From Alphaproteobacteria bacterium (lineage in GTDB: Bacteria; Pseudomonadota; Alphaproteobacteria; Bin65), in contig JAJEGH010000013.1 of NCBI GenBank assembly GCA_022819985.1, positions 124,001 to 188,000 on the forward strand: a DNA stretch of 64,000 bases, read 5' to 3'. Positions 2,169 through 19,205 of the stretch are shown here, in pieces (the stretch's first letter is position 1; each line of letters starts with the position of its first letter). The notes under the pieces were generated by a model. The model was given only the letters and a program-made list of their open reading frames with translations, did no database searches and was not told the DNA's origin. The translations under genes were made by a program, and so were the position numbers.

Positions 2169-3473
2169 ATGGAATGGTGGGTAACCCTATCGGGCGGTCT
2201 GGCCATTCTGGTCGTCCTGTTCCTGACGGGCGCCCCGATATTTCTTGCATTTCTGATCCTCATACTCGGCGGAATTCTTCTTACCCTGGGCGATGCGGGC
2301 TTCGGCATGTTTGCCAACAGCCTGTTCCAGACCGCCAGCACCAGTTCGCTGGCGACGGTGCCGCTGTTCGTTTTGCTGGGCGAAATCCTGTTTCGGTCCG
2401 GTTCGATGGACGTCGTGCTGGATGCGGTGGACAAGCTCGTCGGCCGCATCCGCGGTCGCCAGTATGTCCTGTCCATTTCGCTCTCTACCGTCTTCGGCAT
2501 GCTTTCGGGATCGGGCATAGCCGTTGCCGCCATGCTGGGGCGATCCCTCCTGCCGGTCATGGAACAGCGCGGCTACGACCGGCGCCTTTCGACCGGGACT
2601 CTGCTGGCCGGCGCGATGCTGGCGCCGATCATTCCACCCAGCATTATCGTCATCATCGTCGGCACCCTTGCGGACGTTTCGATCGCCTCGCTGCTCATCG
2701 CGGGCATCCTTCCGGGCCTGCTCATGGCCGCCCTGTACCTCGGCGCAACGCTTGTCGCCGTGCGGCTCAACCCGTCCCTCGCTCCGGCGGACGAGGCCGC
2801 GAACCGGCAGACCGTGGGCGACGTCGTGCGGGCCGTCGCCAGCCTGATGCCGTTCACAATCATCATTTTCATGGTGATGGGGCTGATTATCCTCGGTATT
2901 GCGACACCGTCCGAATCGGCCGCGACCGGGGTCGTCGGCGCATTGCTGACCGCTGCCTACTATCGCCGCCTGAACTGGAAGATGCTGTACCGCTCGATCG
3001 CCGAGGCTGCGGTTATCACTTCCATGATCATGATCATCATGGCGAGTTCGGTGATGTTCAGCCAGTTGCTGGCTTATACCGGCGCGACCCGGGCCCTGAT
3101 GGAGACGACGACAACGCTCGGGCTGCCGCCCTGGGCGATGCTGTTGCTGATGCTCGGGCTGCCTTTCATTCTTTACATGTTCATCGATCAGCTCGGCCTC
3201 ATGCTGATCATCATTCCCATCTACGACCCGTTGTTGAAGGTGCTCGGGTTCGATCCGGTCTGGTTCTGGATGCTGTTTCTCATCAACATGACGCTTGGGG
3301 CGATCACACCGCCGTTCGGTTACATCATCTTCGCCATAAAGGGGGCGGCCCAGCACCTGACAATGAGCGAGATTTTCAGCGCATCCTGGCTGTTCGTCGG
3401 CCTTACCCTCGTCGCGATGCTCCTTATCGCCGTATTCCCGGGGATCGCCACTTTCCTGCCGAGTCTGACATGA
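2169..3473 (+). CDS. dctM: TRAP transporter large permease (DctM family)
   Basis: A 434-aa polytopic membrane protein with about 12 hydrophobic segments. Family motifs include V-P-L-F-V-L-L-G-E-I-L near residue 65, G-M-L-S-G-S-G-I-A near 110, A-P-I-I-P-P-S near 150, and N-M-T-L-G-A-I-T-P-P-F-G near 375. It forms the ion-coupled channel with DctQ. Its stop overlaps the next start (ATGA), which implies translational coupling with the downstream hydrolase. Confidence 0.92.
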   Translation: MEWWVTLSGGLAILVVLFLTGAPIFLAFLILILGGILLTLGDAGFGMFANSLFQTASTSSLATVPLFVLLGEILFRSGSMDVVLDAVDKLVGRIRGRQYVLSISLSTVFGMLSGSGIAVAAMLGRSLLPVMEQRGYDRRLSTGTLLAGAMLAPIIPPSIIVIIVGTLADVSIASLLIAGILPGLLMAALYLGATLVAVRLNPSLAPADEAANRQTVGDVVRAVASLMPFTIIIFMVMGLIILGIATPSESAATGVVGALLTAAYYRRLNWKMLYRSIAEAAVITSMIMIIMASSVMFSQLLAYTGATRALMETTTTLGLPPWAMLLLMLGLPFILYMFIDQLGLMLIIIPIYDPLLKVLGFDPVWFWMLFLINMTLGAITPPFGYIIFAIKGAAQHLTMSEIFSASWLFVGLTLVAMLLIAVFPGIATFLPSLT

Positions 3474-4813
3474 GGAATGTTGAGCGCGCGCAATTTCCGC
3501 TCTCGCTCAGGGAGAAGGTGGACCCGGCCCATTCGGCCCTCGTCGTCATCGACCTTCAGAACGACTTCTGTCACCGGGACGGCGTGTTCGGCAGGCTCGG
3601 CGCATCGCTGGAGACGATGCCGCGCATGTTGAAGTCCGTCGGCAGCCTGGTCGCCGAGGCGCGCCGGCTGGACATCATGATCGTGTGGGTTCGTGCCACT
3701 TACGATCCCGTAGTGCGGTCGCCGGCCTTCGAGGACTCGTTGTCCGGACCCGGCCTCACCGCCGACGTTTGCCTGGAAGGGACCTGGGGCGCGGAATGGG
3801 TCGACGGGTTCGGGCCCGACCCGGATGCCGGCAATGAGGTATGTCTCACAAAGCATCGGTTCAGCGCCTTTTGGGACACGGCAATCGATCTGTATCTGCG
3901 CTCGAACCGGATCGAGACGGTGTTGGTGACAGGCGTCGTGACGAGCGGATGCGTGGAGTCCACGGCCCGCGACGCCTTCTTTCGCAACTACTTCGTCGTC
4001 ATGCCGTCCGACACCTGTGCCTCCTATTCGCAAGAACGCCACGATGCATCTTTGCGAAAGATGGCCCATTCGATGGGAGAAGTGCCGACGAGCGAACAGG
4101 TGCTTTCGATCTGGCGCGAATTCGAGCCGGCCCCGCGCAATTGGCACCTCCGATCGAAGCGAGCGTCGATAAAACGAGACCTGGACGAAGTCGCCGATCC
4201 GCGGCACACGGCGTTTGTCATCGTCGATATGCAGAACGATTTTTGCCATCCCGACGGCGGCATGGCGCAGCTTGGCGCCGACATCTCGGCAAATGTTCGG
4301 GCAATTCCAGCGATTCGGGAACTTCTGGACCGTGCGCGGCAGACCGGCATTCTTGTAGTCCACGTTCACGCCAATTACGGGCCGTTATCGGCATCGTCCG
4401 TCTGGATCGGCAGCGATACCGAGGCTTCGGTTGCTTTGGAGATTTGCCAGCCCGGTACATGGGGCGCGCAAAGCCTTGCAGAGTTGGCCCCGGGCCGGGA
4501 CGAGCCGATCGTGGTTAAGCATCGTTACAGCGCTTTCGTCGATACCCGGCTCGAAACGCTGTTGCGCTCGAACGGCATCGAGACTCTGGTCGTGACCGGT
4601 ACGGCGACGACGGCATGCGTCGAGTCGACGGTTCGCGACGCGATGATGCGGGACTACGACGTGGTGGTGCCGCGGGAAGCCGTCGCGGCGCGCGGCAGCA
4701 TGAAACGCCTTCACGAGACTTCGCTTGAGGCGATGGATTTGTATTTTGCCCGCGTCGTCAGTGGTGAGCAACTTGCCGCCGCCTGGGCCGCGTGCGCTTC
4801 CGTGGCCGGGTAA
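3470..4813 (+). CDS. Tandem double isochorismatase-family cysteine hydrolase
   Basis: A 447-aa protein made of two complete isochorismatase-like domains in one chain, where family members are usually a single domain of about 200 aa. Domain 1 (about 20-215) has the Asp-Lys-Cys triad as D28 (V-I-D-L-Q-N-D-F), K128 (T-K-H-R-F-S-A-F) and C161 (T-S-G-C-V-E-S-T). Domain 2 (about 245-435) repeats it as D253, K350 and C383. Both sites therefore look intact. The start overlaps the dctM stop by ATGA. Family members hydrolyse N-carbamoyl compounds, nicotinamide, ureidoacrylate or isochorismate; the substrate here is probably what the TRAP system imports (inference). It is cytoplasmic, with no signal peptide. 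Confidence 0.85.
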   Translation: MRNVERAQFPLSLREKVDPAHSALVVIDLQNDFCHRDGVFGRLGASLETMPRMLKSVGSLVAEARRLDIMIVWVRATYDPVVRSPAFEDSLSGPGLTADVCLEGTWGAEWVDGFGPDPDAGNEVCLTKHRFSAFWDTAIDLYLRSNRIETVLVTGVVTSGCVESTARDAFFRNYFVVMPSDTCASYSQERHDASLRKMAHSMGEVPTSEQVLSIWREFEPAPRNWHLRSKRASIKRDLDEVADPRHTAFVIVDMQNDFCHPDGGMAQLGADISANVRAIPAIRELLDRARQTGILVVHVHANYGPLSASSVWIGSDTEASVALEICQPGTWGAQSLAELAPGRDEPIVVKHRYSAFVDTRLETLLRSNGIETLVVTGTATTACVESTVRDAMMRDYDVVVPREAVAARGSMKRLHETSLEAMDLYFARVVSGEQLAAAWAACASVAG

Positions 4814-5164: not shown

Positions 5165-6466
5165 GTGGAGAAATCTGTCGACGCGGAAGCGTTCCTCCGG
5201 TCCAGGGCCAGGGAAGACGCCGGTTTCCGCGAACGCCTTCTCGCCAGGCCCAAAGAAACGATCGAGCAGGAATTCGGCGTGACGCTGCCCGCAGAGCACG
5301 AGATTTTCGTGCACGAAGAAACCGACACCGCCACGCATCTGGTCCTTCCGCCGCCCGGCAAGTTCAGCGAAGCCGAACGGGAGGCGGCGAAAACCGGCGC
5401 CGCGTCCCTCGAGTTCCTTCGCAAGACGCTCTACGATCCCGCGCCGCCGCTTCGCCCCTCCGCCCCCCGGCGGACGAAAGCTCCGGGGAGCGCACCGACC
5501 TCCGGGGCGCTGGCGGAAGCGGGGCGGGAAAGCATCCGCCGCGGCCTCGACTTCCTGGAATCCGCCGTCGACGAAAACGGGGCCTGGCACTGCATCCGGT
5601 TCAATACGGCCGACCCGGACATCCCCCGGCATTTCGAAAGGCCTCCCTTCGTCTCGGCCCTGTGCGCGCTTGCTCTGGAAAGTTGCGGCGATGCGCGGGC
5701 CAGGGCGATCTGCACCGCGACAAAGGCCTGGCTGGCCGACACCATGGAATATCCCGGATTGTGGCGCTACTACCGCCACCTTCCCCAGGACCTCGACAGT
5801 ACCGCTCTCTGTTCGCTGGTCCTTGGAACGCACCCGTGGGTTTTTCTGGGCAGGAACGTTCCGCAAATCCTGAAGAATCGAAATGAGGACGGTTGTTTTC
5901 TGACCTGGGTGCTGGCGGACGGCGAACCCGATGTCGTGGCGCCCTTTCGTATCGAAGCCGACCCCGTGGTCAACGCGAATGTCATTGCCTATCTCGGCGA
6001 CCGTCCCGAAACCGGGCAGGCCCAACGATGGCTGGAAGGCCTGATCGCCGAAGACAGACTCGAGGGCTCGTCCAAATGGTATCCCGACACCGTCGCGATC
6101 TACTATGCGGTCGCCCGTGCCCTCGTTCGCGCCCGGCCCGCGCTCGAACGGCTCCGCCCGATGCTGGCGGACCGTATCCTGGGCCTGCGCGACGGCGACG
6201 GAGCATTCGGCAATGTCCTGCAGACCGCTCAGGCGGTGTCGGCGCTCTACGACATCGGGAGCCTCGAAAGAACCGACGCCGGACGCCAGGCGGAAAGGCT
6301 CGTAAGTGCGCAGCATGAAGACGGCAGCTGGCCGGAACTCCTCGCCTTTGGCGATCAGGAGGTAAAGTGGGGCCTCGCAGGACAGATCGGGCACGGCTCC
6401 GAGGCCGTGACTTCTGCGTTTTGCATCGAAGCGCTGGGGCGTCTCGCCGAAACCCTGGAAGCCTGA
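5165..6466 (+). CDS. NHLP leader fused to a terpenoid-cyclase/prenyltransferase (alpha/alpha toroid) domain
   Basis: A 433-aa protein in two parts. Residues 1-82 are a nitrile-hydratase-leader-peptide (NHLP) domain matching the precursor at 7767-8018: by hand, 24 of 48 residues are identical over the ungapped central block (F-R-E-R-L-L-A-R-P-K, then F-G-V-T-L-P, then V-H-E-E, then L-V-L-P-P). A Pro/Ala-rich linker (about 90-115) leads into a squalene-cyclase/prenyltransferase-like helical toroid. The toroid has a QW repeat Q-H-E-D-G-S-W at 383-389, a related D-G-D-G-A-F-G near 343-349, and D-L-D-S-T-A at 209-214, which resembles the class II cyclase acid motif DxDDTA with Ser at the third acidic position. 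At about 330 aa the toroid is half the size of squalene-hopene cyclase and close to protein-prenyltransferase beta subunits. The GTG at 5165 follows GGAGGAG. The product and substrate are unknown. Confidence 0.75.
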   Translation: MEKSVDAEAFLRSRAREDAGFRERLLARPKETIEQEFGVTLPAEHEIFVHEETDTATHLVLPPPGKFSEAEREAAKTGAASLEFLRKTLYDPAPPLRPSAPRRTKAPGSAPTSGALAEAGRESIRRGLDFLESAVDENGAWHCIRFNTADPDIPRHFERPPFVSALCALALESCGDARARAICTATKAWLADTMEYPGLWRYYRHLPQDLDSTALCSLVLGTHPWVFLGRNVPQILKNRNEDGCFLTWVLADGEPDVVAPFRIEADPVVNANVIAYLGDRPETGQAQRWLEGLIAEDRLEGSSKWYPDTVAIYYAVARALVRARPALERLRPMLADRILGLRDGDGAFGNVLQTAQAVSALYDIGSLERTDAGRQAERLVSAQHEDGSWPELLAFGDQEVKWGLAGQIGHGSEAVTSAFCIEALGRLAETLEA

Positions 6467-6505: not shown

Positions 6506-7618
6506 ATGGATATTGACGAGGCAATCACCCTTACCCAGGACCGTCTCGCCGAAGAGGGCGGCACCATGGGCGATTTGCTCGGGCATTTTCGAAACAGGAT
6601 TTCGCCGGTCCTGATCGGCGATTCGGAATGGGCGCGCATCCTCGAGTGCGCCGGCCGGCTTCCGATCGGAATGGGCGCCCTTCCGTTCGGTTTCGAACTG
6701 CCGCTGCACGCCCGCAGGCCGGAGGCGGATTTCGGCGCCTCCCTGGCGAGCGGAACCGGACCGGCGGCGTTTTTCCGGGAGCGCGCGCGGACCGACAAGA
6801 CGGATGAGACGGCGAGAGCGATCGGCAGGCTGTTCCGGCAAATGGAGGCCGAAAATTCGCCTCTGCGGGAAATTGTCGGCCGCAAGCTGATGCTGGAATA
6901 CGACATCGGCTCGGCGCCGAACGGCGCTTCTTCGTTTCCGGGCATGTTTCTCCGGCCCGGCGAACGGCCGATCGTCGGCGCCGGCGGTCAGGCGGGCGAT
7001 GTCGGTACGGTAGTCGATGCGCTCGTTTCCTGCGTAGGCTGGGAAACGAACGATGCCGAACGGGAGAATGTCAAACGGGCATATCTGGCGCAACCCGAAG
7101 ATACGCGCATGGATTCTTTCGGCGTATTTCCATCGCGCTCGCGGGAAATCCGCCTGGCTGTTATGGGCTTCAAATCGCAGGAGGATTTAGGTTCCTATCT
7201 CGAAAATACGGGTTGGCCGGGCCGGATATCGGCCGTCGATTCTGTGATTTCGCGCTTCAGGAAACGCGCGCAGATTATCAGGACGGGGGTTAATATCGAC
7301 GTCGGGGAAGAAGGGTTAGGCCCAACGCTCGGCCTGACGCTCATTGTCAAGCAAAGGTATACGAAGGATTCGCGTTACTGGCTCGACGGGCTGACCGATT
7401 GGGATCCGTTTCTGGACGCGTTGAGCCATGAGGACATCGTCGTTCCGGAAAAACTTGCGGCGCTTGCCGGCTGGGTATCGAAACCGACGCCGCTCTTTGC
7501 GAAATCCGGGCGTTTTGTACTGCTCCGCGGTATTCACCACATCAAGCTGGTGATATCCGGGAACCGGCTTGAGAAAGCCAAAGCCTATGTCTTTATGGTG
7601 CTTTCCGGCGCGGTCTGA
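6506..7618 (+). CDS. Uncharacterised protein, likely partner of the NHLP-fusion toroid protein
   Basis: A 370-aa soluble protein without signal peptide or membrane segment, starting 39 bp after the toroid gene and so probably co-transcribed. I do not recognise a functional domain. Visible features are a F-G-F-E-L-P-L segment near residue 73, W-L-D-G-L-T-D-W-D-P-F-L-D-A-L near 290, and a C-terminal H-H-I-K-L-V-x(9)-K-A-K-A-Y. The last two resemble an uncharacterised family I associate from memory with toroid genes in natural-product loci, as L-S-H-I-K-I-V-Y-x-P-x-x-P-L-E-A-K-A-Y; this cannot be checked here. It could be a tailoring enzyme or a scaffold. Confidence 0.65.
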   Translation: MDIDEAITLTQDRLAEEGGTMGDLLGHFRNRISPVLIGDSEWARILECAGRLPIGMGALPFGFELPLHARRPEADFGASLASGTGPAAFFRERARTDKTDETARAIGRLFRQMEAENSPLREIVGRKLMLEYDIGSAPNGASSFPGMFLRPGERPIVGAGGQAGDVGTVVDALVSCVGWETNDAERENVKRAYLAQPEDTRMDSFGVFPSRSREIRLAVMGFKSQEDLGSYLENTGWPGRISAVDSVISRFRKRAQIIRTGVNIDVGEEGLGPTLGLTLIVKQRYTKDSRYWLDGLTDWDPFLDALSHEDIVVPEKLAALAGWVSKPTPLFAKSGRFVLLRGIHHIKLVISGNRLEKAKAYVFMVLSGAV

Positions 7619-7663
7619 TTCCAGTTTCCGCCCCGGGCCGGAAAGAACGGGCGGAAAAGAATA

Positions 7664-7696
7664 ACCCCTTCCGCGCCTGTCCGGAGCGGAAGGGGT
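7664..7696 (-). terminator. Rho-independent terminator of the NHLP precursor gene
   Basis: An 11-bp perfect stem (ACCCCTTCCGC at 7664-7674 with GCGGAAGGGGT at 7686-7696) and an 11-nt loop lie between two convergent genes. Read on the minus strand the stem is followed by TATTCTTTT, so it should terminate the precursor transcript; it may also stop plus-strand transcription from 6506-7618. Confidence 0.75.
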
Positions 7697-7766
7697 CGGA
7701 ACGAGAGACACACGAGCGGGATGCCGGTTTTCCGTATCCCTGACGGCTACGCGCCGGCGACCCGGT

Positions 7767-8018
7767 TTACCAGCAGCAGCACAGCCCGGCCGAGATAGCC
7801 TCGAGCTGCTCTTCGGTGATGTTCGGATCCGGCGGCAATGCAAGATGTACCGTCTGCATGTCGCTCTCATGGACCTGAATGTTCATCGAATCGGGAATTG
7901 TAATACCCAATTCCGCGCTGATCGTCGTCTTCGGATCTGCGAGCAGCTGTTGCCTGAAATCCGCATCCGTGGCGGACTTCTCAACAATCTGTTGCAGCAT
8001 TTCATCGCCACTTCTCAT
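7767..8018 (-). CDS. NHLP-family RiPP precursor peptide with Cys-Cys-Cys-Trp C-terminus
   Basis: An 83-aa peptide, MRSGDEMLQQIVEKS..., in the NHLP (nitrile hydratase alpha-subunit-like leader) family: F-R-Q-Q-L-L-A-D-P-K, then E-L-G-I-T-I-P, then V-H-E-S, then L-A-L-P-P-D-P-N, then E-E-Q-L-E-A-I-S-A-G. The leader ends with S-A-G, a double-glycine-type site for the C39 exporter at 13819-16029. The remaining core is Leu-Cys-Cys-Cys-Trp, only five residues. The ATG at 8018 is preferred over an upstream in-frame start because AAGGAG sits 7 bp before it. The gene has its own candidate promoter and a strong terminator, as expected for a highly expressed precursor. Modifications are unknown; the neighbouring halogenase homologue and toroid proteins are the obvious candidates. 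Confidence 0.88.
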   Translation of the reverse strand: MRSGDEMLQQIVEKSATDADFRQQLLADPKTTISAELGITIPDSMNIQVHESDMQTVHLALPPDPNITEEQLEAISAGLCCCW

Positions 8019-8217: not shown

Positions 8218-10647
8218 TCAGGCTTCCTTCCTCCCGCCCGGAGCGCCGGACCGGGGCGCAGGCGCGGCTTTCCCTTCAGATTCCTTCCGGGCAGACTTCT
8301 TCCGGTCCAGCACCGTCAGCAGCGCCGGCAAGAGCGAAAGGTCGGCAATGAGCGCAAAGGCGATAATCATCGCGGTCAGGACACCGACCTGTGCGGTGGG
8401 AATGAATGGAGAAAACACGAGGATCAAAAAGCCGGCCACCAGCACGGCCGTCGTCGTGAACAGGGCCCGGCCGGCCGTGTCGAAGGTCTGACGCACCGCG
8501 TCTTCGGGCCCCAGGCCGTGTTCGCGCCGCGCCCGGCGGTATTTGGCGAGGAAGTGCACCGTATCGTCCACGACGATGCCGACCGTCATGGCCACCACGA
8601 CGGACAGCGAGAGGCCCACTTGCCCGACCGTCAACCCCCAGACGCCGAAGCCCAGCACAGCGGGAAGCAGATTGGGAACGATGCTGATCAGGCCCAGCCG
8701 CAGCGACCGCAGGGCGAACAGGAGAATCGCGGAAATGGCCAGGAGCACGACCATCGTTCCGACCACCATGGCGCGGATGTTGCGCTGCCCGATATAGGCG
8801 AACAGCGCTGCCGGGCCGGTGCTGTTGACGCCGGCGACATGGGGGGCGTTCTCCTTCAGCCAGGCTTCGGCGCGCGCGTTCAGGGCGAGCAGTTCTTTCG
8901 AATCGAGCGTCTCCGCCGAAACCGACAGGCGCGTGGCGGACCTGGATCTGTCGATCTGGTTGTTCAGGTCCAGGCCCTGCGGAAGCGAAAGCTCGTAGAG
9001 CAGCAGATACTGTGCCGCCAGCTCGCTGCTTTCCGGAATCCGGTAGGCGGCCGGATCGTCGCCGTGCATGCTCTTGTTGAGCTGCCGGAAGGTGTCGGTG
9101 ATGACCGCCACATGGCGTACGGTGGGTTGCTTCCGGTACCATTCCGCGAATTTCGAAACCTCGGTCAGGAAACGGGGATCGGTGACTCCGCCCTCGGCCG
9201 GGGCCTGCAGCGAGTATTCGAGCAGGGTGTTGCCGCTCAGGCGCTCGTCCATGAAGTCCGTATCCTGCCGGAACTCGACGCTCTTATCGAAGAAATGAAC
9301 GAGGACGTCGTTGAGCTCGTTGCGCGGAACGGCCAGGGCCATCGCGACCGCGACCGCCAGCCAACCCCAGATCAGCGCCTTCCTGTAGCGCAGCACGGAA
9401 TCCGCCAGGCGGTTCATCGTGGGTCCGCGGAACCGGCGCTCCTTCGGGGCGCGCATCGGGAGAAGCGAAAGCAGGGCCGGCAGAAAAGTGACGGAGAGAA
9501 TGAAGGAAGCGGCGATACCGAAAGCGACGAAGATACCGAGATGACGGTAGGGCGGCACCTCGGAAAAATTCATGGCCAGGAATCCGAGCGCCGTCGTCAG
9601 GCTCGCCAGAAATACCGGATGCAGGTTGAGCCTGACGGATTCGACGATGGCATCGTGCCTGGAATCCCCGGCCCGCAGGCGCTGCTGCACCGTCACCAGC
9701 AGGTGCACGCAGTTCGCCACGACAATCATGAGCACGATGGTCGGCGCCGGCGATATGGGCGGGGAAAAGGGCAGTCCGATCCAAAAGCCCAAGCCCATCG
9801 ACGCGAGAATGGAAAAGACGACGACCGCCCCGGTCGCCGCCACGCCCGCCCAGCCCCGGATGAGGACGCCGAGGATCAGGGCCATGATCAGAAGACTTGC
9901 CGGCAGGAAGATCATCTGGCTGCCGATCGAGGCCTCCAGGAAGGTCTGGTTGATCATGACCGTCCCGACGATGCGAAGATCGATGCCGGGAAACCGTTCC
10001 TCCGCCTCCGCAGCGGCCGCTCTGGCGAATTCGGCAACTTCGGCCACGGCCTCCAACAGGCCCTCTTCCGGCATTTCCACGGTGACGTTTACGACGCTGA
10101 CATCGCCGTTCCGGGCCAGAATGCTGCCCGCGATGCGCGGGTCGGATAAAGCGATGGCGCGGATTCGCGACCGCGCTTCGGCCTGGCCCAGATCTCGGGG
10201 ATCGACCAGGTTGCGCACATACAGATCGTCGCCGTCGGCGGTCGTGTGCTGAAAATTGGCGAGCGAGTCGACGCGCCTCGAATAGGGTGTCTTCCAGGCT
10301 CTTTTTGTGAGCCATACGGCGGCCGAAAGCGCCTTTTGCGACGTGGCGTCGCCGTCGTCGGGAACGATCAGGAACGCGACGTTGTCGTTTTTCCCGTAGG
10401 TATTCTCCAGCGCTTCGAGCGCCAGAAGCTGCGGATTGTCTTCGTCGAAAAAGATGCGGTAGTTGGCGGAAAATTCGAGCAAAGCCATGCCGCCCGATGC
10501 GCCCGCAACGAAAAGCAGCGCCGCCAGGATGACCGGCCAGCGGGCCGCGAGCACCCGCTGGGCAAACCGCTTTGCGAATTGCTCTCCCGCTATGCCGAGT
10601 TTGTCCACGGGACCCGCGCTACCGATTTCAAACGCCCCCGATTTCAA
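8218..10647 (-). CDS. RND-superfamily (MMPL) efflux transporter
   Basis: An 809-aa inner-membrane protein with the duplicated RND layout: a transmembrane helix near residue 40, a large periplasmic loop (about 65-240), five to six helices, then a second helix and loop (about 430-600) and six more helices. Motifs include F-D-E-D-N-P-Q-L near 68, typical of the MMPL/HpnN-like group, and a charged tail ending G-G-R-K-E-A. Such transporters often pair with a periplasmic LolA-like protein, and one is encoded at 16849-17721. The longest frame starts with TTG at 10647 and no ribosome binding site; a GTG at 10608 is an alternative. The role is probably export of a hydrophobic product or lipid. Confidence 0.85.
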   Translation of the reverse strand: MKSGAFEIGSAGPVDKLGIAGEQFAKRFAQRVLAARWPVILAALLFVAGASGGMALLEFSANYRIFFDEDNPQLLALEALENTYGKNDNVAFLIVPDDGDATSQKALSAAVWLTKRAWKTPYSRRVDSLANFQHTTADGDDLYVRNLVDPRDLGQAEARSRIRAIALSDPRIAGSILARNGDVSVVNVTVEMPEEGLLEAVAEVAEFARAAAAEAEERFPGIDLRIVGTVMINQTFLEASIGSQMIFLPASLLIMALILGVLIRGWAGVAATGAVVVFSILASMGLGFWIGLPFSPPISPAPTIVLMIVVANCVHLLVTVQQRLRAGDSRHDAIVESVRLNLHPVFLASLTTALGFLAMNFSEVPPYRHLGIFVAFGIAASFILSVTFLPALLSLLPMRAPKERRFRGPTMNRLADSVLRYRKALIWGWLAVAVAMALAVPRNELNDVLVHFFDKSVEFRQDTDFMDERLSGNTLLEYSLQAPAEGGVTDPRFLTEVSKFAEWYRKQPTVRHVAVITDTFRQLNKSMHGDDPAAYRIPESSELAAQYLLLYELSLPQGLDLNNQIDRSRSATRLSVSAETLDSKELLALNARAEAWLKENAPHVAGVNSTGPAALFAYIGQRNIRAMVVGTMVVLLAISAILLFALRSLRLGLISIVPNLLPAVLGFGVWGLTVGQVGLSLSVVVAMTVGIVVDDTVHFLAKYRRARREHGLGPEDAVRQTFDTAGRALFTTTAVLVAGFLILVFSPFIPTAQVGVLTAMIIAFALIADLSLLPALLTVLDRKKSARKESEGKAAPAPRSGAPGGRKEA

Positions 10648-10876: not shown

Positions 10877-13819
10877 TCAGGCGATCTGCCGCCTGACCAG
10901 TTCGCGGAACACCCCGTCGACCTCCATGAGTTCGCCGAAGGAGCCGCTTTGCACGACTTTTCCGGCCTGCAGCACATAGATGCGGTCGGCCTGCTCCAGC
11001 GTGGACAGGCGGTGGGCGATGACGATCCGGGTGGACGTCAAGGCGGTAAGGTTCCGCATGACCTTCGCCTGGCTTTCGTTATCCAGCCAGTTGGTCGCCT
11101 CGTCGAACAGCACGATTCGCGGGCTGCCGATCACGGAGCGGGCGATGGTGATGCGCTGACTCTCGCCGCCGGACAGGACAGCCCCGCTGGTGCCGACCAT
11201 GGTCATCATGCCCATGGGCATGCCCCTGATCTGGTCTTCGACATCGGCGATCCGGACCGCCCTCCAGACTTCCTCGTTCTCCACGTCCTCGTGGTGACCG
11301 ACCAGATTGTCCCAGAGATCCTGCGGGTGGAGCCCGACCGATTGCGGCACCGCACCGATTTTCCGGCGCACCTGTTTCAGGTTCAGGTGCCTCAGGTCGC
11401 GTCCGTCGTAATACACCGCGCCGGCGGTCGGCCGGTCTATCCCGAGCGCGAGCCGGAACAGGGTGCTCTTGCCGGCGCCGGACTCGCCGGCGATCGCGAC
11501 GAATTCGCCGGCGCGGGCGCGAATCGTGACATCGTCGAGAACCAGCGGACCGTCGGAATCGTAGCGGAAGGAAACGCGGTCGAACAGAATATCGCCGCCC
11601 AGATATTCCACCGGCTCCCCCTCCGACCCGGATTCGGGTATGGCGGCGAGCAGCGGGCGCATCTGGTCGAACGCCGGCAGCATGGCCGCAACGGTGCCGA
11701 AAGACTCGCCGAGCCGCGCGATGGCGGACTGGAAGGCGATAAAGACGGTGTAGACGACGAGAAAATCGCCGACCGGGAGGTTCCGGTCGCCCACCGCAAC
11801 CGCCGCGAAAAGCAACGCCCCGCCGGCAAGAAAGGGGAGCGCGGCGCCGAACGCCCGCGAATGCGCCTCGAGCGCGCCCAGTTCGACCTCCGCGCGTTTC
11901 TGCTCGCGATAGTCCCGCGCCCACATGGCGAAGGCCGATCCTTCGGCGTTTTCGACGCGCAGCTTGCCGATGCCGCCGACGATCTGGAACAGCCGGCCGG
12001 TTACGCGGCGCGCGGCGCCGATCATTCGCCCGTAAGGCGAAATCTGGCGCAGCCCGAGTAACACGGTAATCAGCAGGGAAACCACGCTGAAAGCCAGCGC
12101 GACGACCCCCAGAGCGGTATCGTAGAAGAAGATGACGCCGAAAACCGGGAGCAGGAAAATGACCGACAGCAGGCTGTCGGCAACGACCCCCTGCAGGCCG
12201 TCGCGCAGATTCTGGAACGTCATTCCCGACATCGCCAGATCGCCGGACGGCCGGCGGTGCAGAACGCTCGGCGGAAGGCGCATGAGGCGGTCCCAGAAGG
12301 CAGCTTCGACCCGCGACGCCGAGCGGCCTTCGAGGCGCATCATCGCCGTGCTCTGAAGCAGGTGAAGCAGGGCGCCGAGCAGCCCGAACCCCGCCACCGC
12401 CGCCGCCACGGCATAGAGCGTTCCGGCGCTTCCGCCCGCTACGATGTGATTCGCAACGATCCCGAGCGCGAGGGCCGGCAGCAGCTTGATCAGTCCGCCC
12501 GGAAGCCCGGCGATCGCAAGCCGCGCCAGGTCGGCGGCCGATCCGTGCAGGGCGATCCCCAGCAGGTCCGCCGGTTTCACGTTCCCCGACGGCAATGGCC
12601 GATAGAACATCCAGGCTTCCTGGCGCAACGCGCCGGCGCGCTCCGCCGTGATCCGGACACGGCGCTTGCTGACCGGGTCGAATTCCCGGTAGCGCCCGAA
12701 CCGTCCCGGCAGCAGCGCTACCGGCCGGCCGTCCCCGGCCCGGAATGCCAGCATGGCGTTGCTGTCGCCGCGCCACCAGTCGTCCTCGGCCGTGAAGCGC
12801 ACGCGCCGGGCGCGCACGCCCGACGCATCGAGAATGTCGACGAGGCCGACCGGAGAATCGGAAGGTCCCGAGCGCACCGGAAATTTGAAATCGATTCCTT
12901 CGCGGCGGCCGATGACCCGCAGGGCATCCGCCAGCGCCGTATCCTCGACATCGGCGCCCCGGTCGATCGGCAGGTCGTAGATATTGAAGAGCCGCTGCCG
13001 CGCGGCTTTTTCGGCCGTCCGGCGGCTGGTTGTCCGCGCGCGTTCGAGATTTGCCTCGTCGACCACGGCCAGCTGGCGGTTGAGGCGTTCCAGCGTGAAG
13101 GCCACCGCGTGAAACGTGGCGAGCGCCGGCAGCAGCCTGCCTTGCTGCGCCAGCGTTTCGGTCGATTTGCCCGAAAGCGTCGTCTCGTCGAACAGGGTGA
13201 GCCAGCTTGTCCGCGTCAGCGGTATCTCCGGTTCGTGCAGGCCGCCTGCCTCGGCAAGTTCCGCCTGGTCGACAATGTCCATGCACAGGCTTGCGCCGCG
13301 CGGCGGTTCGGATACCCAGACCACACCGCGCCGTACCGACAGGGTGCACGGAGCCAGGGTTTGCGTCTGGCCGGGTTCGGCCAGTGCGGTCGGACGCGGA
13401 AGGCGGGTTGCGAAGCGCGAAAGCGTGTCGGTAATGGCGGTCAGCCAGGTATCGGTCTGTTCCGCGAGTTCCGCCGGATCGACCTCGGACAGCAGGGAGG
13501 CCGGCAGGCGTTTCAAAAGGGTGCCGGGCGATCCCTTGGCAATCAGGCTGAGCGTCGTGTCTTCCTCGTTGTTGCGCCGGTCAGGGGCGACGCCCGGCAG
13601 CAGCCGGCCCGCTTCGCGCCGCAACAAATGCTGCGGCGCAGCCTGCTCCACCCCGTCCTTGAATTCGACCAGGAACAGATTGACGGCGCCCCGGTCGATG
13701 AACCAGACGCTGTCCGGATCGTCGAGCGCGACCGGCAGGTTGCCGGCGCAGGGCACGGATGTGCCGGCGCGAACGGCGAGTTCGTCTATCGGGGTGTATT
13801 CGGACCCGGTGTCCGGCAT
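10877..13819 (-). CDS. NHLP-system ABC exporter, permease/ATPase subunit
   Basis: A 980-aa protein in the NHPM (NHLP export) two-ABC arrangement. The first ~400 residues are the family-specific cytoplasmic extension, followed by six membrane helices (about 430-700) and an ATPase domain. The ATPase has Walker A G-E-S-G-A-G-K-S-T, signature L-S-G-G-E-S-Q-R and Walker B R-I-V-L-F-D-E-A-T. It has no C39 peptidase domain; that lies on the partner. Its ATG shares one base with the partner's stop (TGATG), so the two are translationally coupled. With the adaptor at 16031 it should export the mature NHLP peptide. Confidence 0.88.
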   Translation of the reverse strand: MPDTGSEYTPIDELAVRAGTSVPCAGNLPVALDDPDSVWFIDRGAVNLFLVEFKDGVEQAAPQHLLRREAGRLLPGVAPDRRNNEEDTTLSLIAKGSPGTLLKRLPASLLSEVDPAELAEQTDTWLTAITDTLSRFATRLPRPTALAEPGQTQTLAPCTLSVRRGVVWVSEPPRGASLCMDIVDQAELAEAGGLHEPEIPLTRTSWLTLFDETTLSGKSTETLAQQGRLLPALATFHAVAFTLERLNRQLAVVDEANLERARTTSRRTAEKAARQRLFNIYDLPIDRGADVEDTALADALRVIGRREGIDFKFPVRSGPSDSPVGLVDILDASGVRARRVRFTAEDDWWRGDSNAMLAFRAGDGRPVALLPGRFGRYREFDPVSKRRVRITAERAGALRQEAWMFYRPLPSGNVKPADLLGIALHGSAADLARLAIAGLPGGLIKLLPALALGIVANHIVAGGSAGTLYAVAAAVAGFGLLGALLHLLQSTAMMRLEGRSASRVEAAFWDRLMRLPPSVLHRRPSGDLAMSGMTFQNLRDGLQGVVADSLLSVIFLLPVFGVIFFYDTALGVVALAFSVVSLLITVLLGLRQISPYGRMIGAARRVTGRLFQIVGGIGKLRVENAEGSAFAMWARDYREQKRAEVELGALEAHSRAFGAALPFLAGGALLFAAVAVGDRNLPVGDFLVVYTVFIAFQSAIARLGESFGTVAAMLPAFDQMRPLLAAIPESGSEGEPVEYLGGDILFDRVSFRYDSDGPLVLDDVTIRARAGEFVAIAGESGAGKSTLFRLALGIDRPTAGAVYYDGRDLRHLNLKQVRRKIGAVPQSVGLHPQDLWDNLVGHHEDVENEEVWRAVRIADVEDQIRGMPMGMMTMVGTSGAVLSGGESQRITIARSVIGSPRIVLFDEATNWLDNESQAKVMRNLTALTSTRIVIAHRLSTLEQADRIYVLQAGKVVQSGSFGELMEVDGVFRELVRRQIA

Positions 13820-16029
13820 CAGCCCGACCTGACCAGCTTTGAATACGGACCGTCCCGGTCGGCGATCAGCGTGTCGTGGGTGCCGCGCTGCACTTCGGCG
13901 CCGTTGTCGAGCACGATGATTTCGTCGCAATCCCGGACGGTGCTGAGCCGATGCGCCACGATCAAACAGGTGACCCCGCGGCGGCGCAGGGCCTCATCGA
14001 CATACTCCTCCGTCGCCGCATCGAGGGCGCTGGTCGCCTCGTCCAGAATGAGCACGGTCGGATTGCCCACCAGCGCACGGGCGATTTCCAGCCGTTGCCG
14101 CTGGCCGCCGCTGAAATTCGCCCCGCCCTCCTCGACATGCGTCGCATATCCCTGCGGCCTGAGCAGGATTTCGTCATGGATGCAGGCATCCCGCGCCGCG
14201 GCGAAGATGGCTTCGTCCGGAACGGCCGGGTTCCACAGGGTAATGTTGTCGCGCAGCGACGCGAAGAAGAGCACGCTCTCCTGAGCCACCATGGAAACGG
14301 ACCGCCGCAGCACTTCCTCGGGAATTTGGTCCCGCAGATGGCCATCGAACAGGATTTCGCCCGACCAGGGCCGATAGACCCCGGAAACCAGATGCGCCAG
14401 GGTCGACTTGCCGGAACCGCTGGGACCGACCACGGCAACCCGCTGCCCCGGCCTGATGACGAGGTTGAAGTCCTTTATCAGGGGCGGCCGGCTCCTGTTG
14501 AAACCGAAGGTGACGTCCCGCAATTCGAGCTGGCCGGCAAGCTGGAGCCGGCCCTTGAACGTGGGAATCGACTCCGCTTCCGGATTCCGGCGGGCGAAAA
14601 CGGGATCTTCGTCGGCTTTGGAGATGTCCTCGAGCCGCTGCAAATCCGTTTCGAGCGCCTGGCGCTTGTCGGTGAACTCCAGAAAGCGCCCGATCGGCGC
14701 CAGAAACATCTCCGCGAGGATATAGAAGGCGACGAGCGTTCCGAGGGTCATGTCCCCGGCCATGACCAGGCTTCCCCCGACGGCCAGGATCGCCGCGCTC
14801 CGAAGCGCCGCGATCAGGCCCGGCAGCGCGGTATTGACGGAGACCGGCTTGGAATAAAGCTGCCGCGCCCGCAATTCGCGTGCCTGCTGACCGCTCCAGC
14901 GCGAAAAGAACCGGTCGTCCGATCCCGTCATGCGCAGGTTGTCCGCATGACTCAACATCTGCATGCCGAAGCCGATCAGCAATCCCTGTTCGCGCCGCAT
15001 CGCCTGGCTTCGAACGGCCCGGAAGGCGTTGAGAAAGCGGGCCAGCATGCCGTGCAGAAGGGCCAGCAGCAGCACAATCAGGGTGAGCAGGATATCGTAG
15101 ACCAGCATCGCGACGAGCAGCACGACGCTCATCGCCATATCGATAAGGAGCACGAGAAACCGGTCCGTCAGATTCTTCGCGATCCTGTCGATGGACGAGA
15201 CCCGGTCGGTCAGATCGCCGACCAGCCGGTGCTCGAAAAACTCGATCGGCAACCGCAGCAGCCGCGACACGCTCCGGTTGTAGCCGCTCACCGAAATCCG
15301 GACAGCCAGGCGCTTCAGGAACCGGTGCTTGAGCACAAACAGGACGTATACCAGGACCCCGCCGCCGAGCAGGGCCGCCACCAGCCCGCCCCAGGGCGCG
15401 CGGTTTTCCAGAACGCCGTCCACGAAAATGTGAAGAGACGCGGGGACGATAAGACTCAGCACCGTCAGCATGAGCCCGCAGGCAATCACCCCGGTAAGCA
15501 CACTCCACGTTCCGGCGAGCAGGGCGCTTAATTGCTCGAACAGGCTCTTCCGCTCACCGCCGGGTTCGAAATCGGGACCGCGCTTGAAGCACAGCGCAAT
15601 GCCGCTGTACCCCTTGTCGAACTCTTCGGCGGAGAGCTTTCGTCTGCCGGTGGACGGATCGTTGAGAAAGAAATTCCGGCTGTCGTAGCCTTCGAGAACG
15701 ACGAAATGGCTGAATTGCCAGAACAGGATCAGGGGAAGCTGCAGCTTTTTCAGTCGATCGGTGCGCATGCTGAGCCCGTTGCATTCCAGACCGTAATGTC
15801 TGGAGGCGCGCACGATACTCGCAGCGCTGCTGCCGTCCCGGCTCACCTCGCATTTCTCGCGCAATTCGGTAAGCGGCACCCAGCGGCCGAAGTAAGCCAG
15901 TATGCTGCCGAGACATGCGGCGCCGCATTCGGACGCATGCATCTGCAACGTTATCGGCGTAACAACCTTTTGTTCCGGGAAGTCCGTTGCAGCCTTATCG
16001 CTCGTCCCTTTGGCGGCGCCCTGCGCCAT
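13819..16029 (-). CDS. NHLP-system peptidase/permease/ATPase (C39 exporter)
   Basis: A 736-aa protein combining a C39 leader peptidase, a six-helix membrane domain and an ATPase. The peptidase triad is C35 (S-E-C-G-A-A-C-L), H108 (F-S-H-F-V-V-L-E-G) and D124 (N-D-P-S-T-G). The ATPase has G-P-S-G-S-G-K-S-T, F-S-G-G-Q-R-Q-R and L-I-L-D-E-A-T-S. C39 domains cut after double-glycine-type sites, matching the S-A-G end of the precursor leader. The ATG at 16029 follows the adaptor stop by one base; a longer frame upstream overlaps the adaptor and is not C39-like. Confidence 0.9.
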   Translation of the reverse strand: MAQGAAKGTSDKAATDFPEQKVVTPITLQMHASECGAACLGSILAYFGRWVPLTELREKCEVSRDGSSAASIVRASRHYGLECNGLSMRTDRLKKLQLPLILFWQFSHFVVLEGYDSRNFFLNDPSTGRRKLSAEEFDKGYSGIALCFKRGPDFEPGGERKSLFEQLSALLAGTWSVLTGVIACGLMLTVLSLIVPASLHIFVDGVLENRAPWGGLVAALLGGGVLVYVLFVLKHRFLKRLAVRISVSGYNRSVSRLLRLPIEFFEHRLVGDLTDRVSSIDRIAKNLTDRFLVLLIDMAMSVVLLVAMLVYDILLTLIVLLLALLHGMLARFLNAFRAVRSQAMRREQGLLIGFGMQMLSHADNLRMTGSDDRFFSRWSGQQARELRARQLYSKPVSVNTALPGLIAALRSAAILAVGGSLVMAGDMTLGTLVAFYILAEMFLAPIGRFLEFTDKRQALETDLQRLEDISKADEDPVFARRNPEAESIPTFKGRLQLAGQLELRDVTFGFNRSRPPLIKDFNLVIRPGQRVAVVGPSGSGKSTLAHLVSGVYRPWSGEILFDGHLRDQIPEEVLRRSVSMVAQESVLFFASLRDNITLWNPAVPDEAIFAAARDACIHDEILLRPQGYATHVEEGGANFSGGQRQRLEIARALVGNPTVLILDEATSALDAATEEYVDEALRRRGVTCLIVAHRLSTVRDCDEIIVLDNGAEVQRGTHDTLIADRDGPYSKLVRSG

Positions 16030-16030
16030 A

Positions 16031-16573
16031 TTACGGCCGCCTTGTCCGCAAGAGCGTAACGGGAGACTGTCTGCCGAGTTCGACCGTAATCCGGCATTTC
16101 CTGCCCGCAAGGGACGCGATATCGAGGCCTTTCCCGAGCGCGACAACGATCCGGTGCGCCGATACCGGCTCGAACGCCGCCAGCCCCCCGGACGAGGGGA
16201 TAGCGGAAATTGCCGCGATCTCTCCGTCGAACGTTTCCGCGTCTCCGTCTGCCGTCTCCAGCTCTATCGCTGCCGGCATTCCGGCCCCGATCTGCAGCGC
16301 GGCACTTCTCTCGATCCAGACGACCGCCCGCACGGACCCTGCGCCATCGGGCAGGCTTTGGGCAGGCTGCGCCAGGACGCCTTCCAGCGTCGCGGTGCGG
16401 GCTACGCTGCCGAGGAAGAGCCATGCCGCGAGGATAACCGATAACAGAGCGATGCCGACGACTAGCAGACGCTCCCGCGGTGTGGAAATTGTCAGCAGCC
16501 TGTCGAGTTGTTCGCGTTCTTCTTTTGCTTCGGCGACAGTATTATGAAACGAGCTAAATGGATTGTTGAACAC
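16031..16573 (-). CDS. NHLP-system HlyD-like secretion adaptor
   Basis: About 180 aa: a short cytoplasmic segment with T-V-A-E-A-K-E-E-R-E-Q-L-D-R-L-L, then one membrane helix (V-V-G-I-A-L-L-S-V-I-L-A-A-W-L-F), then a small barrel-sandwich periplasmic domain. The long coiled-coil hairpin of classical HlyD proteins is missing, as in NHLP secretion adaptors. The GTG at 16573 is chosen over a TTG at 16660 because AGAAGG lies upstream and the TTG region is not adaptor-like; the start remains uncertain. It is the first gene of the export operon. Confidence 0.72.
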   Translation of the reverse strand: MFNNPFSSFHNTVAEAKEEREQLDRLLTISTPRERLLVVGIALLSVILAAWLFLGSVARTATLEGVLAQPAQSLPDGAGSVRAVVWIERSAALQIGAGMPAAIELETADGDAETFDGEIAAISAIPSSGGLAAFEPVSAHRIVVALGKGLDIASLAGRKCRITVELGRQSPVTLLRTRRP

Positions 16574-16649
16574 GACCGCACGAAGCCTTCTTATAAAGAT
16601 CGGACAAGGACACGGAATTTCTCGGCCGGCTTGAGCGAAGATTGGCGGA

Positions 16650-16680
16650 ATGATATGCAATTATGCCGGGGGAAGGTCAA
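16650..16680 (-). promoter_or_regulatory. Candidate promoter of the NHLP export operon
   Basis: On the minus strand TTGACC (16680-16675) is followed after 19 bp by TATCAT (16655-16650; 5 of 6). It lies in the gap between the adaptor gene and the divergent LolA-like gene and would favour the GTG start at 16573 over the TTG at 16660. Confidence 0.35.
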
Positions 16681-16848
16681 GTATTCCAGAAGCCGGAGCA
16701 CCTTGTCGGGTATGCTTCGGCCGGGGCTTGCGGCGGGTTTTTGCAGACCCGCCGTCCCGGCCGGGCGCCTTTTCCGGCGCGTCCCGGACTTCTCCTTCCC
16801 CGGCGAACCGGGATACAATGCACGATCTTCGACACGGAACCTGCGCCG

Positions 16849-17721
16849 ATGCCCTCTGACCGCGAAATCGCCGGGAAACGTCTGACCGGCCAAGGCAGCA
16901 CGAAGGGGTTTCCAGGCCCGCGGGACGCGTTGTTCGGCGTTCTGTTTCTGGCGCTCGCGTGCCTCTGCCTGCCGATTGCCCCTGCCCTCGCCCAGAGCGA
17001 AACGCCGGAGGACAAGGGCCTGAGAATTGCGCGCGAAACCAGCGCCCGCAACGACGGTTTCGGAGATTTTACCGCCGGATTGACGATGGTGCTGCGCGAC
17101 CGGCACGGCCGGGAAAGCGTCCGCAAGATGCGCTTCAAGGTGCTGGAGGTGCCGGGGGACGGCGACAAGAGCCTGTTCGTTTTCGATCAGCCGCCGGCCG
17201 TGCGGGGAACCGCCCTCCTGACTCACGGCCACATCAACACCCAGGACGACCAGTGGCTGTTTCTGCCGGCCCTGAAAAGGGTAAAGCGCATCAACGCTTC
17301 GCGGCGCTCAGGGTCGTTCATGGGCAGCGAGTTTTCCTATGAGGACATGAGCACTCCGGAGGTGGAGGAATACACCTACAAATATCTTCGCGACGAGCCC
17401 TGCGGCAAACTCGTGTGCACCGTGATCGAGCAGGTTCCCCTGGATGAGGAATCCGGATACAGCCGCAAGGTCCTTTGGCAGGACACGGGCGAACTTCGAA
17501 CCTGGAAGATGGAGCTTTACGACCGGAAGGGTTCGCACCTCAAGACGCTCACTTTTGCAAACTACCGGCAGTATCTGGACCGGTACTGGCGGGCAACGGA
17601 ACAGACGATGGAGAACCATCTGACCGGTGCGAGCACGGTACTCAAATGGACGGGGTTCCGGTTTCGCACCGATCTGGACCACAGCGAGTTCACCCAGACG
17701 GCGCTCCGGCGCGTACGCTGA
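16849..17721 (+). CDS. Outer-membrane lipoprotein-sorting (LolA-like) protein
   Basis: A 290-aa periplasmic protein. A basic N-terminus is followed by a hydrophobic stretch (A-L-F-G-V-L-F-L-A-L-A-C-L-C-L-P) and an A-L-A-Q cleavage site near residue 48. The mature part has features of the LolA-like proteins that accompany MMPL transporters: F-D-Q-P-P-A-V-R-G-T-A-L-L-T-H near 120, L-P-A-L-K-R-V-K-R-I near 140, and G-S-E-F-S-Y-E-D-M near 160. It likely receives a hydrophobic cargo from the RND transporter at 8218-10647. The gene stands between the export operon and the halogenase homologue; the ATG at 16849 gives the best signal peptide. Confidence 0.82.
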   Translation: MPSDREIAGKRLTGQGSTKGFPGPRDALFGVLFLALACLCLPIAPALAQSETPEDKGLRIARETSARNDGFGDFTAGLTMVLRDRHGRESVRKMRFKVLEVPGDGDKSLFVFDQPPAVRGTALLTHGHINTQDDQWLFLPALKRVKRINASRRSGSFMGSEFSYEDMSTPEVEEYTYKYLRDEPCGKLVCTVIEQVPLDEESGYSRKVLWQDTGELRTWKMELYDRKGSHLKTLTFANYRQYLDRYWRATEQTMENHLTGASTVLKWTGFRFRTDLDHSEFTQTALRRVR

Positions 17722-17930: not shown

Positions 17931-19205
17931 GTGATACTGCCGGGCGCAAAATCGTTGCGGAGGATCGCGGTCGTCGGGCGGGGAACCGCCGGGTCCCTGG
18001 CAGCCGCCAGCGCAGCGAAGCTTCTGCCCGGCGACGACCTCGAACTGCACCACATCTACGATTCGCGCATCCCGGTCATCGGGGTGGGCGAAGGCAGTTG
18101 GCCGAGCCTGGTCCAGGAATTGCACAAGCTGACGGACCTGCCCCACGAAACCGTCCAGCAGCGCCTGAAAGGAACGCGCAAATACGGCGTCGCCTTCGAG
18201 GGATGGGGCCGGCGCAACCGGGACTTCACCCACTTCTTCACGCCGCAGCAGGTGTCCTACGCCTACCATCTGTCCGCCGACCTCCTGGCGGAGCTGCTGC
18301 ACGAAAGCACGCGCGCGCGCCATATCGACGCCGAAGTGCTCGATATCTCCAGGGTGGAGGGCGGCGCGCAGGTGGAGTTCAGGGACCTGCCGCCGGAACG
18401 CTACGACCTAGTCTTCGATGCGCGCGGGTTTCCGAAGGAACTCCATCCCGAGCAGCACATCGACATTTCTTTCATCCCCACCAATACCGCCGTCATCCGC
18501 CGCTGTCCGGCGGTTATCGGGGAGGACGGGGACGGGCCGGTCCTGCAGCATACCTACACCCGCGCCGTGGCGCGTCCGCACGGCTGGATCTTCGTCATTC
18601 CGCTGACGGTGCACACGTCCTACGGCTACATCTTCAACCGCGATATGTCCGACCTTGCCGACGTCGAAACGGACTTCAGCGAATTCCTCGAAGCCGACGG
18701 CGTATCGGAATTCGAGCAGCGCGCCGTCATTCCATTCCCCAATTTCGTGCACCGCCGGATCTTCGACGGCGCGGTGGCCCGGGTCGGCAATGCAGCGGCC
18801 TTCATGGAGCCCCTCGAGGCGACGGCGATCGTATCCGCCCAGTTGCAGATCGGCATGATTCTCCACATGCGTCTCAACCGGCCGGTGGAGAATCTCGAGC
18901 GCGACGCGCCGACGGTAAACCGGTTTCTCATCGACACCATACTCCGCTACGGCCTGTTCGTCGGCTGGCACTATTCCTGCGGCTCCCGGTACGACAGCAG
19001 GTTCTGGCGCCACGCCCGCGAGCGGGTCTGGCCCCGGCACCGCAAGGCCGCCGCCCCCGAGGCGGTGGATTGCGCCGCGCTCGCCAGGTTCGACGAAATG
19101 ATCGAACTGCTGAACCGGCCGGTCATCGACCAGGAGGACTGGAACCGGATGTGCGCCGTGCCCCTCACCAGCTACGCCCAGATGTCCCAGAATCTCGGCT
19201 GCTAG
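17931..19205 (+). CDS. Flavin-dependent tryptophan-halogenase family protein
   Basis: A 424-aa cytoplasmic flavoprotein. The FAD-binding motif is G16-R-G-T-A-G21, followed by the family's G-V-G-E-G-S-W-P (51-58; usual form G-E-A-T-x-P). K84 (G-T-R-K-Y-G-V-A-F-E-G-W) aligns with the catalytic Lys79 of RebH, and E293 or E296 in F-M-E-P-L-E-A-T matches the conserved Glu segment. The usual W-x-W-x-I-P is W-I-F-V-I-P (219-224), with the second Trp changed to Phe. It is shorter than RebH/PrnA (about 530 aa), mainly at the C-terminus. The GTG at 17931 is the first plausible start. It may halogenate the Trp of the neighbouring LCCCW core (inference); a free small-molecule substrate or a non-halogenating role are alternatives. 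Confidence 0.78.
   Translation: MILPGAKSLRRIAVVGRGTAGSLAAASAAKLLPGDDLELHHIYDSRIPVIGVGEGSWPSLVQELHKLTDLPHETVQQRLKGTRKYGVAFEGWGRRNRDFTHFFTPQQVSYAYHLSADLLAELLHESTRARHIDAEVLDISRVEGGAQVEFRDLPPERYDLVFDARGFPKELHPEQHIDISFIPTNTAVIRRCPAVIGEDGDGPVLQHTYTRAVARPHGWIFVIPLTVHTSYGYIFNRDMSDLADVETDFSEFLEADGVSEFEQRAVIPFPNFVHRRIFDGAVARVGNAAAFMEPLEATAIVSAQLQIGMILHMRLNRPVENLERDAPTVNRFLIDTILRYGLFVGWHYSCGSRYDSRFWRHARERVWPRHRKAAAPEAVDCAALARFDEMIELLNRPVIDQEDWNRMCAVPLTSYAQMSQNLGC

Follow-up and report, generated by a model that had tools for sequence, protein, structure and literature searches.

The precursor gene lies at positions 7767–8018 on the minus strand of the window, by which we mean the whole 64,000-nucleotide stretch of DNA analyzed. 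Translated from 8018 to 7767, it encodes an 83-residue peptide, MRSGDEMLQQIVEKSATDADFRQQLLADPKTTISAELGITIPDSMNIQVHESDMQTVHLALPPDPNITEEQLEAISAG followed by LCCCW and a stop codon. The genes and features that surround it are as follows.

5165–6466, plus strand: NHLP-like domain (about residues 1–70; TIGR03793 E 2e-12) fused to a predicted class II terpene cyclase domain (residues 110–433; assigned by fold)
6506–7618, plus strand: predicted ABBA-fold aromatic prenyltransferase, assigned by predicted structure, with no family match by sequence
7663–7697, minus strand: terminator-like hairpin 3′ of srpE (MFE −28.1 kcal/mol, z −2.86)
7767–8018, minus strand: srpE orthologue, with NHLP leader residues 1–78 (ending SAG), core LCCCW (residues 79–83) and stop
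8218–10647, minus strand: MMPL/RND-family transporter (PF03176 E 3e-36), linked to srpE in many relatives
10877–13930, minus strand: NHLP exporter permease/ATPase, ABC2 (TIGR03797 E 5e-201; 669.7 bits, cut-off 709.4)
13819–16146, minus strand: NHLP exporter with C39 peptidase, ABC1 (TIGR03796 E 2e-253; 843.1 bits, cut-off 853.3; C39 E 5e-36)
16031–16660, minus strand: short HlyD-like secretion protein of the NHLP exporter (weak TIGR03794 match, E 1e-4; conserved in relatives)
16663–17721, plus strand: LolA-like outer-membrane lipoprotein-sorting protein (PF17131 E 2e-59), linked in many relatives
17931–19205, plus strand: srpI orthologue, a flavin-dependent tryptophan halogenase (brominase; PF04820 E 1e-45)

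The initial annotation had described an NHLP leader ending in Ser-Ala-Gly, followed by LCCCW and a stop, without stating the strand; this architecture was confirmed, on the minus strand. The leader matches the TIGR03793 profile (leader_NHLP) with 71.8 bits against a cut-off of 50.9 (E 3e-20), over profile positions 4–77 of 77. The reading of the gene as an NHLP (proteusin) precursor, its core five residues long and its exporter alongside, is borne out by this match and by the NHLP exporter set spanning 10877–16660, in which the best TIGR03796 and TIGR03797 matches fall slightly under their curated cut-offs. The HlyD-like protein has only about 209 residues where the TIGR03794 model is twice as long, and matches in relatives are of comparable size. 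The proposed ribosome binding site is accounted for by an AGGAG motif, visible in the sequence itself some 8 nt upstream of the ATG. The claim that the gene has its own terminator held in part: a 12-bp hairpin followed by the U-rich tail UUAUUCUUUU lies about 70–105 nt past the stop, but a generic terminator scan found one such element against 1.1 expected by chance, no excess.

A scan of public genomes returned 161 relatives of srpE, of which 80 were kept. By sequence comparison, the precursor gene is far beyond chance, since these 80 other loci encode it with 83–96% identity across all 83 residues. Their records are titled Alpha-, Gamma- and Deltaproteobacteria, Acidobacteria, Gemmatimonadetes, Binatia, Nitrospinota and others, and several record names suggest an origin in sponge metagenome projects. 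A phylum-wide search of 398 genomes at E ≤ 1e-14 matched the window's own genome alone. All 81 sequences (the window and 80 orthologues) end in SAGLCCCW. Over all pairs, codons 76–83 differ at 28% of codons synonymously and at 0% non-synonymously, the five core codons taken alone at 15% and 0%, and the leader at 30% and 13%, respectively, a pattern of codon differences indicating that the core is under purifying selection.

The srp cluster of marine sponge microbiomes was reportedly first described by Nguyen et al. in 2021 (JACS). The name stands for sponge-derived RiPP proteusin, made by many marine-sponge bacteria; its proteusin, SrpE, carries the core LCCCW, whose three Cys residues are converted to thiazolines by the YcaO protein SrpC, and whose C-terminal Trp is brominated at indole C6, in a leader-dependent manner, by SrpI, with Lys84 as catalytic Lys (PMC10286304, PMC10858898). 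SrpE also bears an L(X)4L motif, NLTEEQL, at residues 66–72 (PMC10858898). The window precursor has NITEEQL at residues 66–72, with Ile67 in place of Leu67 of the L(X)4L motif (67–72), and Ile67 is the majority state (79 of 81 sequences). Likewise, the halogenase at 17931–19205 retains Lys84, as in SrpI, together with the GRGTAG and GWIFVIP motifs.

The only YcaO of this genome is encoded on another contig than srpE (C50:62041–64374); in most relatives it adjoins srpE. The protein has the SagD-type and leader-binding domains of a cyclodehydratase and is 86–88% identical to the YcaO of genus mates. The closest relative (G185) likewise carries it on a different contig, and in other members of the genus the two genes are linked. 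An orthologue is present in 12 of 12 precursor-bearing genomes, the window genome included. Beside it stands the gene for a fusion of a fatty-acid-desaturase-like protein with a GlnE-like domain, a standard neighbor in relatives as well. On C50 (L089, 10039–14964 of G000:C50), this fusion has 833 residues with fatty-acid-desaturase and GlnE-like adenylyltransferase domains, and its GlnE part, judged by eye, seems to have lost the first catalytic Asp.

The same 12 genomes, all with YcaO, were used to compare the halogenase with the core it would act upon. All nine LCCCW genomes encode the halogenase, and the three whose only cores are LCCCF, LCCCGI or RCCC do not (Fisher p = 0.0045, from a small number of draft assemblies), so that it tracks the terminal Trp. 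Each of the three non-Trp genomes shares a genus with at least one LCCCW genome. The test set by the initial annotation, whether CCCW varies or is lost in homologues, has a divided answer: the motif is invariant in the orthologues, but paralogous sister precursors end in LCCCF (G286), LCCCGI (G357, of the window's genus), RCCC (G288), MCCCGI (L071, 7346–7591; L083, 7345–7590) or WCCCGN (L088, 6282–6527). This variation carries information, since the three genomes whose cores lack the Trp also lack the halogenase, and natural cores with and without Trp, paired to the presence of the halogenase and the cyclase, provide ready controls. Further sister-precursor loci are L123, L124 and L125. In L123 and L124, clusters without Trp, an FAD-linked oxidase and methyltransferases replace the halogenase and cyclase.

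We assign the gene, with a probability of roughly 0.93, as srpE of the sponge-symbiont srp cluster, with a route of thiazoline formation, bromination and export; the terpenoid step considered below stands outside this figure. The assignment was made from the core, the residue numbering and the neighboring genes. It follows from a core and numbering (the motif at 66–72 and the halogenase Lys84) identical to those of published SrpE and SrpI, and is reinforced by the NHLP leader and exporter profiles, the identical cores under purifying selection, and the distribution of YcaO and halogenase across the 12 genomes. Counting against it, YcaO lies outside the cluster in a draft genome, so that one pathway is assumed over two loci. 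The minimal core had been presented as novel, and its length is unusual for proteusins in general, which would suit a new kind of NHLP peptide outside known pathways. We regard that reading as very improbable, because core, leader motif and brominase all match the already published SrpE and SrpI (PMC10286304, PMC10858898). Less credible still is the reading that the gene encodes a nitrile-hydratase-like protein that is not exported, or is a precursor gene in decay: there is a Pfam NHase_alpha match (E 2e-9), but nitrile hydratase profiles are matched in part and the NHLP leader profile in full, and the nearby exporter set, the halogenase and purifying selection all speak against it. Elsewhere in the genome, tandem weak NHLP-profile matches occur within single reading frames, 226 and 317 codons long (G000:C43:25697–26098 and G000:C18:70516–70878); these are probably ordinary nitrile hydratase alpha-type proteins. 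The initial observation is thus correct and the precursor already known: the core adds nothing new, confirming that the widespread sponge srp pathway is present in this genome, and any novelty would lie in the neighboring genes.

The first of these neighbors, the open reading frame at 6506–7618, returned no match in family profile searches or in a sequence-profile search of the PDB. Its AlphaFold2 model (pLDDT 90.3) points to an ABBA-fold aromatic prenyltransferase, an assignment made by fold alone at a TM of about 0.5. Among the Foldseek matches listed, 50 of 50 are ABBA prenyltransferases (best E 2e-5), and the matches listed by structural alignment (VIA) are ABBA enzymes only, the best being the indole prenyltransferase MpnD (Z 16.9 over 308 residues, 4.6 Å rmsd). 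Lys127, Arg213, Arg216 and Lys347, candidates for the basic residues that bind diphosphate inside the barrel, are invariant or nearly so in relatives. A profile of this protein found a copy in 27 of 27 precursor-bearing genomes searched, even where the srpE flank fetched has none, and no copy in one genus member that lacks the precursor. The gene also accompanies cores without an aromatic residue. A divergent YcaO or a leader-binding protein had been considered for this frame and was ruled out by the predicted fold.

The adjacent frame, at 5165–6466, is open from 4967, and relatives conserve the Met at 5165 as its start. Its AlphaFold2 model has a pLDDT of 76; the alignments used for structure prediction, here and for the prenyltransferase, left out loci taken from whole genomes. 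The C-terminal domain resembles drimenol synthase (Foldseek E 7e-11; Z 29.3 over 280 residues, 2.5 Å rmsd) and MstE (Z 28.0), and is predicted to be a class II terpene cyclase that retains the catalytic Asp. Asp211 of its DLDS motif, which stands for the DxDD/DxDT motif of this enzyme class, aligns with the catalytic Asp333 of AsDMS, the residue mutated in the D333N structures (residue 318 of the chain sequence, taken from the numbering offset to be 333 of the entry). Both Asp211 and the NHLP–cyclase fusion are conserved in all 32 compared sequences. Like the halogenase, the cyclase follows the terminal Trp, occurring in nine of nine LCCCW genomes and in none of the other three.

Paralogues of both genes also occur, adjacent to each other, in a second and distant type of NHLP locus (L135 and L136). 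Precursors and prenyltransferase/cyclase paralogues of this type lie at 4129–4395 and 10996–12983 of L135 and at 2285–4368 and 9967–10266 of L136. The precursors end in GGFAPGGDSW and GGIAPTDDSY, with short cores (FAPGGDSW and IAPTDDSY) whose last residue is aromatic. A related NHLP locus, L137 (3829–9201), combines a prenyltransferase paralogue with a methyltransferase and a tryptophan halogenase of full length (PF04820 E 1e-187).

The present analysis establishes the orthology of the gene, the invariance of its core and the co-occurrence of halogenase and Trp. On this basis, a route can be proposed in which the ribosome makes the 83-residue precursor, the YcaO cyclodehydratase encoded on the other contig would close the three core Cys residues to thiazolines, and the leader-dependent cluster halogenase would brominate the C-terminal Trp; these two modifications have been demonstrated for SrpE elsewhere, bromination at indole C6. 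With less assurance, the ABBA-type prenyltransferase may then add a prenyl group to the core, or to its leader-bound form; the prenyl chain may in turn be folded on the peptide by the class II terpene cyclase with its own NHLP domain. From the properties of its family, the C39-peptidase ABC exporter is expected to cut after SAG and would export the modified pentapeptide; we infer the cleavage site, the export and the activity in this organism.

Whether prenylation and terpene cyclization belong to the srp pathway bears on the product itself, which may carry a cyclized prenyl group, given the neighboring prenyltransferase and cyclase genes, and hence be larger than a brominated tris-thiazoline pentapeptide. 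We put the chance that the peptide is such a terpenoid–peptide hybrid, formed alongside Trp bromination, just short of even. The prenyltransferase counts against it, being recognized by fold only and present also with non-aromatic cores. That same occurrence suits a product that is the brominated tris-thiazoline peptide only, with the prenyltransferase and cyclase serving some other pathway, terpenoid or lipid, that merely travels with the cluster, a reading to which we give serious weight, though somewhat less than an even chance. Two members of the cluster, the MMPL transporter and the LolA-like protein, hint at the movement of lipids, and published bromination was achieved without these enzymes (PMC10286304). 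A separate pathway is harder to reconcile with several observations: the cyclase bears an NHLP domain and follows the terminal Trp; the prenyltransferase accompanies the precursor in all 27 genomes and is missing from the one that lacks it; and in the second NHLP locus type the two genes sit side by side, next to precursors whose last residue is Trp or Tyr. For the hybrid peptide, the conserved prenyltransferase and NHLP-fused cyclase amount to a testable prediction of missing srp chemistry. The srp and proteusin literature searched, which did not cover the 2021 founding description, mentions neither a prenyltransferase nor a terpene cyclase, and the srp accounts within it describe no natural end product. 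We know of no earlier account of a RiPP pathway that has a class II terpene cyclase dedicated to it.

Compared with known systems, the locus shares with SrpE and srp the NHLP leader, the LCCCW core, the motif at 66–72, the halogenase Lys84, the YcaO partner and a wide spread in sponge bacteria. It differs from published srp in that YcaO and the desaturase–GlnE fusion gene lie on another contig, and in having prenyltransferase and terpene cyclase genes that go unmentioned in the srp literature searched (2021 founding description not covered). Its predicted cyclase shares the class II terpene cyclase fold of the AsDMS drimenol/drimenyl synthase and of MstE, with the catalytic Asp aligned; those two are not RiPP enzymes, and where the window protein is joined to an NHLP domain, AsDMS carries the name of a HAD-superfamily protein. 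The prenylated lanthipeptide system MppE/MppC offers a likeness in its long structured leader and in geranylation of a core Trp indole, but differs from srp in its Nif11-type leader and lanthionine rings, and the accessible part of that report mentions no class II terpene cyclase (PMC12715784). Although the MprE system has ten precursors with other cores, the MprE/MprC/MprD proteusins of a methanotroph likewise combine an NHLP leader with YcaO-made azolines (PMC12455567). The MprE7 leader structure 8tb1 matches the window leader with an E value of 4e-12.
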